Source: an uncultured cyanobacterium
GTDB taxonomy: Bacteria; Cyanobacteriota; Cyanobacteriia; Thermosynechococcales; Thermosynechococcaceae
Direction of reading: 5' to 3'
DNA: 48,122 bases
Assembly: GCA_937951315.1 (NCBI GenBank)
Contig: CALFCG010000140.1
Span: 1-48,122 of the forward strand
In this document: in pieces, positions 7,374 to 11,910 of the stretch
Numbering within the stretch: position 1 is the stretch's first letter
Layout of the letters: the number at the start of each line of letters is the position of its first letter
The notes under the pieces: model-generated
Seen by the model: only the letters and a program-made list of their open reading frames with translations
What the model was told of the DNA's origin: nothing
Databases searched by the model: none
Program-made: the position numbers and the translations under genes

Positions 7374-7467
7374 TGCTCACGCCCCTCGCTCACATCAATA
7401 CACAACGCCATTATAGGTGCTGTACCAAAGGAGCCAGGTCTTCACTCGCGTCCACCAAAAACAAAAC

Positions 7468-7505
7468 AACAGCAGATTTTCCATAGACCCCGAAAACCTG
7501 CTGTT
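7468..7505 (-). terminator. Intrinsic terminator of the 7530..8075 gene
   Basis: 14-bp stem (AACAGCAGGTTTTC / GAAAATCTGCTGTT on the minus strand, one mismatch), then TGTTTTGTTTTTGG; begins about 24 bp after the stop codon. Confidence 0.7.
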
Positions 7506-7529
7506 TAATTGAGAGATCAGAGAATGAAG

Positions 7530-8075
7530 TTAAGCCGCCACAGTCTCGTCGGCCGCAATTGCAGCCTCCCCAGCCGCAGTCCTTGTCAACGCATCTTGAG
7601 TCCAAGCCACATTCGCAGTCTGCAAAGTGGGATGCGGAAAAAACTCTAGGGCATGGGGCGCGCGCTTCATCAATTCGGTTGAGCGACTTTCCGACTCAAT
7701 CCAGCTCGCTAACCAGGGTGCGAAGTCCATGATCTGCTCAGGTAGCAGCGAGAGTTCCCAGCTCCAATCCCGATTGAACTGAGGATCCTTAGAGTTCTTC
7801 GAAGCTTGGTTCGCAGTGTTCGGCCATTGATTCACAGTAATTCGTAAAACCAACGGTCGGTGTGGAATCAAGGCATCAGGCGCTGTATGCGCATAAATTG
7901 CCAGGCAATTGATCCGATTATGCTTATCAACCCAAGAGGCGACAGGCGCCATCGAGGGATTAAAAATGAGTGACTTGCCCTTAGACAATTTGACGGGCAC
8001 CTTCATTGCAGTCTGAAATAAATCGTAGAACTCTTCTCTCAGAGAACTCAGGATATTAGCAGCGTCTGGCGTCAT
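7530..8075 (-). CDS. Uncharacterised cyanobacterial protein
   Basis: ORF track runs to 8138 (TTG start), but ATG at 8075 is preceded by GAGAGGAACC (good RBS). Confidence 0.7.
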   Translation of the reverse strand: MTPDAANILSSLREEFYDLFQTAMKVPVKLSKGKSLIFNPSMAPVASWVDKHNRINCLAIYAHTAPDALIPHRPLVLRITVNQWPNTANQASKNSKDPQFNRDWSWELSLLPEQIMDFAPWLASWIESESRSTELMKRAPHALEFFPHPTLQTANVAWTQDALTRTAAGEAAIAADETVAA

Positions 8076-8202
8076 GGTTCCTCTCTCATCAAGTGTGGTA
8101 GCAGATAAAAAGTCACAGATGTACGAACATTGCCCCAATCTATTTATCTGGTCGCCATCCCCCTCTTATGCAATGTCGTACGAATACCGATAGAGTTCCC
8201 AA

Positions 8203-8244
8203 AGTTTACACAGAGTTAAACCTGACAATCGTAAACTTTTTTAC
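8203..8244 (-). promoter_or_regulatory. Candidate NtcA-activated promoter
   Basis: GTA-N8-TAC at 8231..8244 (minus strand GTAAAAAAGTTTAC), exactly 22 nt, then TAAACT (TAN3T) at 8203..8208, facing the 7530..8075 gene. Confidence 0.6.
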
Positions 8245-8473
8245 ATACTGAGACGAGAAAAATCGCGCGCGCGAATTTAGGTCACATTTTGGTGTTCAAA
8301 GTCACAGTTCTGGATATGTCCACCGCTTACTACCACCAACAACACCTAACGTTTCTCTAGACTCCCTTACACAAAGTCACGATGATCCAAAATCTCAAAA
8401 TATCTAGCGTTGGCACAGCACAGAACATTAGACTAGGAGGTTGAGATTCGTAATTGATTTGTTTTGCACAGCT

Positions 8474-8857
8474 ATGAACGCCATTCTAGAGTCGCAGGCC
8501 GCGACCAACGATAAATTATCCCAACGCTTTATTGAACTAGACCCAGGCGGCTATTTCCTAATCTTCCTTGATCAAAGCGCGGGGCTCATTTGTGCTGAGC
8601 ATTACTCTAACAACATCAATGACAAAGGACTCGCAACCGATCCCGAAACCGGAGAGCCACTGCCCTGCCATGGATCTTTGAAACGTTTACCAACGACCAG
8701 CTTTAAAGCTCAAACAGCCAAGGAACTCTGCATCCAGATTTTTGAGACACCCCAGACTCAACTCGTGACAAAGTTAGACCATGCCGCCTATTTGGGGAGA
8801 GAATTTGTTCGAGCTGAGATGGCCTTAGCTGACGGCACTACCTATATTCAGGACTAG
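8474..8857 (+). CDS. DUF4346-containing protein
   Basis: FIELDPGGYFLIFLDQSAGLICAEHYSNNINDKGLATDPETGEPL pattern; ATG at 8474 preferred to 8441. Confidence 0.75.
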   Translation: MNAILESQAATNDKLSQRFIELDPGGYFLIFLDQSAGLICAEHYSNNINDKGLATDPETGEPLPCHGSLKRLPTTSFKAQTAKELCIQIFETPQTQLVTKLDHAAYLGREFVRAEMALADGTTYIQD

Positions 8858-9441: not shown

Positions 9442-10116
9442 CTACAAGCAACGCCGCTTCCGGAGAACGAGGGGCAAGGCAGACATTAGGGCTAGAACGC
9501 TGCAGGCAATAATAAACGAGCTGAGATTTTCCCCCTGCAGAGCTTGGTGCCCTGCGACACCAACCCAGGTATAGGCGATCACACCTGGAATAATACCGAT
9601 TAGCGTTCCCAAACTGTAGGGAAACCAGTGGATTTTGGTCAACCCAAATAGAAAGTTAACCAGATTGAAGGGTGAAATAGGAGCGAACCTTACGGAGAGC
9701 ACAAACGCAAAGGGACGATCTTGAATGGCGTTATTAAAAGAGGTCAGCAACTTTTGATCGTGGATACGTTGCTGGGCCCAACTGTGAAGAAGAGAACGTG
9801 CCATCCAAAAGGCTCCCATCGCCCCTAGGGTGGCACCAATCAGCGACCATAGACTGCCCCAGACCAAGCCAAAGGCTAATCCCCCCACCAAGGTCAAAAC
9901 AACTCCAGGAACACCAATGACAGTCGCCCCAATATGGAGCAAGATGAAAATGGCGACAGACCAAAAGCCACTTTGACGGAGCGCCTCTAGCAAGCGCATC
10001 TGATTGAACAGCAGGGGAATGATTTCAAAAATCTTAGGCAGTGCTAGAACACATAACAGTGAGGCTAACGCCAGTAGCGCGGGTCGTGGTAGATATCGTT
10101 TCACCTCATGCTGCAT
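9442..10116 (-). CDS. TVP38/TMEM64 (DedA-like VTT domain) membrane protein
   Basis: GVPGVVLTLVGGLAFGLVWGSLWSLIGATLGAMGAFWMAR and RFAPISPFNLVNFLFGLTKI. Confidence 0.85.
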   Translation of the reverse strand: MQHEVKRYLPRPALLALASLLCVLALPKIFEIIPLLFNQMRLLEALRQSGFWSVAIFILLHIGATVIGVPGVVLTLVGGLAFGLVWGSLWSLIGATLGAMGAFWMARSLLHSWAQQRIHDQKLLTSFNNAIQDRPFAFVLSVRFAPISPFNLVNFLFGLTKIHWFPYSLGTLIGIIPGVIAYTWVGVAGHQALQGENLSSFIIACSVLALMSALPLVLRKRRCL

Positions 10117-10128
10117 CCGGTCATCCGT

Positions 10129-10872
10129 TTAGGTCGAGATAGATTCCTGCGTTTCGGGTACCGCCTCAGCCAGTGCTTTACGAGCAATACGCGTAACCAC
10201 CACAGTAACGGCAACCGTCGCAATCAAACCAATAATTCGAATCGCCCAAGTAACAGCAGGATTCGAGGGTGCATCACCCGCACCTAAAGTCGCTAAATTA
10301 CCCGCAAGAGAGCCCAGATAGACATACATCACTGTGCCAGGGAACATCCCAATGGATCCAAGGAAATAATCCTTGAGTGAGACATTAGTGACACCCAGAC
10401 CATAATTCAAGATGTTGAAGGGGAAAATCGGTGAGAGCCGAAGCAAAGTAACAATCTTGAAGCCTTCTTTACCCACAGCTTTATCAATGGCAGCAAAGTT
10501 TTGATTGCCCTCAATTTTTTTCGCCACCCAGCCTCTAGCCAAATACCGTCCGACTAAAAAGGCAAGGGTCGCCCCCAATGTTGCCCCGACAAAAACAACT
10601 AACGATCCTTGAACGACTCCAAAAAGGACACCAGAACCTAAGGTCAGGACTGAACCGGGGAGAAAAGCAACGGTGGATACGATGTATATACCAATAAATG
10701 CGATCGCACCTGCCGGGCCCAAATCTTTCACCCATTCCAAAGCATCCACCAGAAGTTGCTGCGGATTGAATCCAGCACTAACGGCCGCCAATGCTGGGGG
10801 TTGCACCGTAATAAATAGGCAAACAGCCATAGCAATCGACGTATAAAACCAGCGTTTAGATCGAGTAAACAT
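10129..10872 (-). CDS. TVP38/TMEM64 (VTT domain) membrane protein
   Basis: FLPGSVLTLGSGVLFGVVQGSLVVFVGATLGATLAFLVGRYLAR and RLSPIFPFNILNYGLGVTNV. Confidence 0.88.
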   Translation of the reverse strand: MFTRSKRWFYTSIAMAVCLFITVQPPALAAVSAGFNPQQLLVDALEWVKDLGPAGAIAFIGIYIVSTVAFLPGSVLTLGSGVLFGVVQGSLVVFVGATLGATLAFLVGRYLARGWVAKKIEGNQNFAAIDKAVGKEGFKIVTLLRLSPIFPFNILNYGLGVTNVSLKDYFLGSIGMFPGTVMYVYLGSLAGNLATLGAGDAPSNPAVTWAIRIIGLIATVAVTVVVTRIARKALAEAVPETQESIST

Positions 10873-10911: not shown

Positions 10912-11910
10912 TTAAACCAGGGAACCACCGCAGCTCGAACCACAGCCTGCCGTACAGCCGTAACAGAAATCATCTGTCTGAACCTTGCCAATAACATCGA
11001 GAGAACCTAGCTCCAGCAGCCGACTGACTGTCAGTTTTTCTCCCTCAGGTGTTTGGGCTGGGATATCTTCCATTTGATTGAAATCACAGTCGTAAATCTT
11101 GCCGTTGTAGTCCACTGAAAGCTGGTTACGACACATCAAACTTCCCACCGTGGCCGCATTAAATTCCCCTTCTAAAAACGAAAGGTAAGGCTGGTGCAAA
11201 TCGCGATGCTGGAGATGAAACTTAGTGCGACCAATAGGTAAATTTGTAATGGCAAATAGGTGATTAAAAACAATCCCAAAGTGCTTATGAAGGTGGGCTT
11301 TATAAGCCTGCTCCAAAGGTTCTTGAGCAGGTGTCGCAGAAAAATCTGCCTGAGTTGGAATAGGCGGGTTATAGACCAGATCCAAAATAAGATCGGAATC
11401 GCGACCATATCCGAGCTTATTCAACCACTGTAAAGCCTTAATGGATTCGTCATAGACGCCCTGGCCGCGCATCTTATCAACATTGTCTTCTAAGTAACAG
11501 GGCAGTGAAGCCACTACCCGTAACTGGTTTTCAGCGAAGTATGCCGGTAAATCCTCAAAACCCGGCTGAAAGAAAATCGTCAGATTAGAACGGACGATAA
11601 CTTCTTTCCCAGACGCTCGCGCGGCCTCAACCAGGGGCCTAAAACCATAGTTCATCTCCGGAGCCCCCCCCGTCAGGTCCACTGATTGAATCTGAGGGAA
11701 ACGCTCAATAACCTCAACTAACTGCTCACAGATTTCTGGTGACAGTTCTTCGGTCCGCTTGGGGCTTGCTTCAACATGACAGTGAGAGCAAGCCAGATTG
11801 CAACGACGGCCGAGATTAATCTGCAGCACCGAAATAGGCTGCTTCGTCAGGGGTTGATCTAGCTTTTCAGCAAAAGGCGTTAGTTGAGTATTTTGTATCG
11901 ATGTAATCAT
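10912..11910 (-). CDS. arsS: Arsenosugar biosynthesis radical SAM protein
   Basis: CNLACSHCHVEASP radical SAM motif, VDLTGGAPEMN, Cys-rich C-terminus CYGCTAGCGSSCGG; adjacent to arsM-like gene. Confidence 0.88.
   Translation of the reverse strand: MITSIQNTQLTPFAEKLDQPLTKQPISVLQINLGRRCNLACSHCHVEASPKRTEELSPEICEQLVEVIERFPQIQSVDLTGGAPEMNYGFRPLVEAARASGKEVIVRSNLTIFFQPGFEDLPAYFAENQLRVVASLPCYLEDNVDKMRGQGVYDESIKALQWLNKLGYGRDSDLILDLVYNPPIPTQADFSATPAQEPLEQAYKAHLHKHFGIVFNHLFAITNLPIGRTKFHLQHRDLHQPYLSFLEGEFNAATVGSLMCRNQLSVDYNGKIYDCDFNQMEDIPAQTPEGEKLTVSRLLELGSLDVIGKVQTDDFCYGCTAGCGSSCGGSLV

Follow-up and report, generated by a model that had tools for sequence, protein, structure and literature searches.

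The window analysed here, a stretch of 48,122 nucleotides from the genome of an uncultured cyanobacterium, carries on its minus strand a gene (7530–8075), hereafter X, whose 181-residue product belongs to an unnamed cyanobacterial family. Because the N-termini of its orthologues, which nearly always begin M/V-(T/N/S)-P, agree with the sequence MTPDA encoded from the ATG at 8075, this codon is taken as the start of X; a longer TTG-initiated frame, reaching to 8138, finds no support among the orthologue starts. The gene is followed on the same strand by a terminator hairpin with a 14-bp stem and a 10-nt loop (7468–7505, with arms at 7468–7481 and 7492–7505), and by its T-rich tail, GTTTTGTTTTTGG (7455–7467). 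The hairpin region has a folding z of −4.4, bearing out the gene-plus-terminator layout given in the preliminary description, and the absence of this element from the output of a simple terminator scan goes with the 8-nt loop limit of the latter.

Upstream of X, starting 169 nt ahead of its ATG, lies a candidate NtcA box, GTAAAAAAGTTTAC (8244–8231, minus strand), that is GTA-AAAAAGTT-TAC. A spacer of exactly 22 nt, GATTGTCAGGTTTAACTCTGTG, separates it from a candidate −10 box, TAAACT (8208–8203, minus strand; −133 to −128 relative to the ATG), which matches TATAAT at four of six positions. This −10 element places the predicted transcription start at 8196, from which a predicted 5′ leader of about 120 nt (8076–8196, minus strand) would run to a GAGG-type ribosome-binding site at its end. 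The succession of GTAN8TAC, 22 nt and TAAACT had been pointed out before, and both the sequence and all of the coordinates are correct to the base.

The intergenic region upstream of X is shared with a divergent gene (8441–8857) that encodes a pterin-binding DUF4346 domain. Around the candidate promoter, it also contains three direct repeats, AAAGTCAC(A/G), at 8109–8117, 8298–8306 and 8373–8381, which read as TGTGACTTT-like sequences on the minus strand and resemble CRP half-sites. Elsewhere in the window, a tandem pair of genes for VTT-domain (TVP38/DedA-like) membrane proteins (9442–10872) adjoins a radical SAM/DUF3641 gene (10912–11910), and a single tRNA is the only Rfam match.

The X family is found in 57 of 390 genomes and 28 of 160 genera of the class, with 64 named loci; the relatives in named genomes were recovered by a profile search, a single-sequence search having returned none. 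Identity among them is mostly 33–47%, with homology of X to the family extending over its whole length and including invariant residues R13, Y17, W48, N56, P66-D67, P74, N82, N101, P112 and W121. No relative was found on plasmids or in phages. The product had been described as lacking a recognisable domain and, consistent with this, neither X nor, where tested, a 49-member alignment of the family matched any entry of Pfam, NCBIfam, PHROGs or the PDB sequences. An AlphaFold2 model built from 49 sequences (pLDDT 87.7, pTM 0.83) consists of a helix, four strands, a helix, two strands and a helix, plus short extra helices; Foldseek returned no match for it, with best E-values of 0.32 in the PDB and 0.15 among viral models. 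The confidently predicted fold of X thus appears, by comparison with the PDB, to resemble no solved structure. With a pI of 5.9 (family median 6.7), the protein is near neutral and gives no hint of RNA binding.

Within the family, X is usually the third gene of an rbp-rpsU-X cassette. A gene for an RRM protein and/or rpsU (bS21) lies upstream of X, on the same strand and within 1.5 kb, at 51 of the 55 non-Acaryochloris loci with sufficient upstream sequence, many of which come from closely related Nostocales. The RRM gene is present in 49 of these loci and rpsU was detected by BLAST in 28, where the rpsU-X gap is often 59–110 nt; the RRM and S21 identities were confirmed by Pfam at one locus. 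About 20 genera show the linkage; they range from Nodosilinea, Leptolyngbya and Oculatella to the Chroococcidiopsidaceae, Pleurocapsales and Nostocales, and the window's own family is represented by one member (L026/L044). RRM proteins of cyanobacteria have been connected with cold acclimation, salt tolerance and mRNA localisation (PMC9333190), and the searchable part of the literature did not yield any account of a conserved gene in third place after rbp-rpsU.

Gene order, the one guide to its function, suggests that X may be an accessory factor, acting in translation or RNA handling, of the Rbp/bS21 stress-translation machinery. Since X is not basic, it could perhaps serve as a protein-protein adaptor. 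It is also conceivable, although rather unlikely in our judgement, that X is functionally unconnected to Rbp/bS21 and that the gene order represents a frozen neighbourhood, as might be expected from the free-standing position of X in the window and in all Acaryochloris examined, the absence of the link at 4 of the 55 other loci and the close relatedness of many of them; against this speaks an upstream, same-strand link that persists over about 20 genera, with no other neighbour of X as widely shared across the family loci.

The X genes of the window and of Acaryochloris form one clade (100/95) and stand away from rbp-rpsU; the source genome has three rbp-rpsU cassettes, none of which includes X. 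No gene next to X is common to the window and Acaryochloris, and a search for leader motifs common to X and the rbp genes gave stray 10-mers only. On a midpoint-rooted tree, the simplest history would be a single loss of the linkage in the window/Acaryochloris clade. In the window lineage, the gene of this proposed Rbp/bS21 accessory factor would have come to be transcribed by itself, from a separate promoter some 170 nt upstream, with a leader of about 120 nt and a terminator of its own.

The promoter of this unit had been read as an NtcA promoter, and part of the evidence for that assignment comes from the behaviour of the strict pattern GTAN8TAC-N22/23-TAN3T. In the shuffled window, 0.14 matches are expected on both strands together (P = 0.125 for at least one), and about zero in the 350 nt ahead of X. 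The whole genome contains 15 N22 and 6 N23 matches, compared to 8 for a wrong-spacing control (GTAN10TAC-N22-TAN3T) and 12 for the reversed pattern; the match at X is therefore improbable by chance at that one place, yet not unique in the genome. A reading of the strict pattern as uninformative, based on the counts of 15 and 12, was dropped once the positions showed that nearly all strict matches precede genes. Taking as criterion an intergenic location, checked against open reading frames, with a correctly oriented gene start within 450 nt, 18 of the 21 strict matches lie in front of genes, as opposed to 4 of 8 for GTAN10TAC and 3 of 12 for the reversed pattern (Fisher P ~0.0009 for strict versus reversed); the reversed control is imperfect in that it contains ATG/CAT, which is why the GTAN10TAC control was added.

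Strict matches precede nirA, encoding ferredoxin-nitrite reductase, and urtA (both over the cut-off), as well as an MSMEG_0569-type nitrilase-cluster gene and the gene of an AmiS/UreI transporter, and NtcA itself is encoded in the genome (369.9 bits, over the cut-off). The strict pattern is informative in the source genome; judging from the GTAN10TAC control (4 versus 12), about one-third of the N22 matches before genes would nevertheless be due to chance. Five matches with high matrix scores (L257, L256, L253, L007 and L008) are candidate new NtcA targets of the same genome, in front of genes for an M23 peptidase, an MSMEG_0569-type oxidoreductase, a sulfotransferase-like protein, an SDR and an RTX-repeat protein. 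Another (L002) precedes the gene of cofactor-independent phosphoglycerate mutase, an enzyme reported to be inhibited by PirC under nitrogen starvation (PMC12077085).

Matrices for the box were built from the GTAN8TAC sites upstream of the family's glnA and amt genes and the genome's own ntcA; as positive controls, GTAN8TAC is found in every complete glnA upstream region, about 20 amt upstream regions and that of the own ntcA. With a symmetrised matrix, the box at X scores 10.1, above 68% of arbitrary GTAN8TAC sequences and below 86% of true sites; a slightly different training set gives 10.4 for X, 6.6 for the own nirA and 16.6 for the own ntcA. An asymmetric matrix with downstream context places the box at X lower, its score being reached by 45% of arbitrary boxes. 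Whereas strong NtcA sites of Anabaena have T4C5 and A10A11 (PMC3898017), the box at X has AA at positions 4–5 and TT at positions 10–11. To call the promoter "textbook" was accordingly an overstatement: with its middling matrix score, which falls within the range of arbitrary GTAN8TAC sequences, and lacking the T4C5/A10A11 context, the box is compatible with NtcA.

Conservation of the box upstream of orthologues had been proposed as a check, and its outcome is negative. Within 350 nt upstream of the 59 non-Acaryochloris orthologues, nearly all of which are rbp-linked, the strict pattern is absent (0/59) and the bare GTAN8TAC box occurs once, compared to 2.5 expected occurrences. In Acaryochloris, the strict pattern turns up in two of seven orthologues, near −62 instead of −169 (0.01 expected, although these sequences are related), and the bare box in three of seven. 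What all seven have in common is a different block, TGATGTNNGTTACAG-N23/24-TATAAC-like, located between −163 and −175, its −10 falling between −125 and −137. This block is the best-conserved promoter-like stretch of these regions and not a good NtcA site; its interpretation as a degenerate GTN10AC site was rejected, for the right half is not present in all seven sequences, whereas GTTACAG is. Because the window box, at −169, and its −10 are as far from the ATG as the corresponding elements of Acaryochloris, the position of the promoter may be shared between the two, with a sequence that is not; this remains suggestive only. In four of the Acaryochloris loci (L024, L028, L029 and L030), a conserved CRP-like palindrome, which in L029 reads TTGATCTAGATCACA, precedes a CACTTGTTAAGTG-like sequence; it is located about 40–70 nt upstream of the promoter block and is possibly a SyCRP1-type site.

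In a rival account, the GTAN8TAC/−10 pair arose by chance, and expression of X depends on a different promoter that does not respond to nitrogen and may be related to the conserved Acaryochloris block. The mid-range matrix score, the lack of conservation among orthologues, the four wrong-spacing matches before genes, on whose evidence roughly one in three of the 12 N22 matches so placed could be chance, and the presence in Acaryochloris of a distinct conserved block at equal distance from the ATG would all be explained in this way; an exact class II geometry, correctly placed and oriented, would not, nor would the recovery of nirA, urtA and others by the same strict pattern, and the box of the own nirA scores below that of X. 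We regard chance as a serious but minority possibility.

The promoter region also contains a 9-bp inverted repeat, AAAGTTTAC-N21-GTAAACTTT (8201–8239), that takes in a portion of the NtcA box together with the entire −10 element. With perfect arms separated by some three helical turns (P ~0.013 in shuffles of the intergenic region), it might be the operator of another dimeric regulator; its two arms would then simply account for the −10 and for a segment of the box. This seems very improbable, considering that the repeat was noticed after the fact and occurs once in the genome, implying no regulon, and that a −10 within an operator arm also fits activation by NtcA.

On balance, the geometry, the presence of NtcA in the genome and the enrichment of the pattern before genes give the NtcA assignment partial support, against which stands the lack of conservation of the box, and the promoter of X in the source genome is most likely, by a little more than an even chance, of the predicted class II NtcA-activated type. 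Under nitrogen limitation, NtcA together with 2-oxoglutarate would occupy a site near −41.5 and bring RNA polymerase to TAAACT. The complete interpretation, in which X is an Rbp/bS21 accessory that has here become a single-gene unit with a promoter most likely activated by NtcA, we consider about evenly balanced between right and wrong. Its boldest form, that X is a new-fold partner of Rbp/bS21 moved under NtcA, so that nitrogen status and not cold or stress sets its level, is improbable as it stands. Without a recognised domain or fold and accompanying rbp-rpsU over about 20 genera, X is a concrete candidate for an as yet missing factor of translation or RNA handling, and its representative in the window, detached and possibly rewired to a nitrogen regulator, offers a testable case of regulatory rewiring.

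Compared to known systems, X in its relatives is the usual next gene of the cyanobacterial rbp-rpsU cassette, which combines a cold- and stress-related RRM protein (PMC9333190) with bS21, whereas in the window it lies apart from all three cassettes of the source genome. With respect to class II NtcA promoters, in which GTAN8TAC is centred near −41.5 and the −10 is of the TAN3T type (PMC3898017), the candidate site upstream of X differs in the strong-site dinucleotides and in its lack of conservation in orthologues, but agrees with them in its core box, its spacing of 22 nt and the class of its −10, in a genome that likewise encodes NtcA. Further parallels are found in that same genome, at nirA and urtA (L003 and L255), which have a known role in nitrogen metabolism that X lacks, but whose promoters present the strict GTAN8TAC-N22/23-TAN3T arrangement before the gene, as is the case at X.
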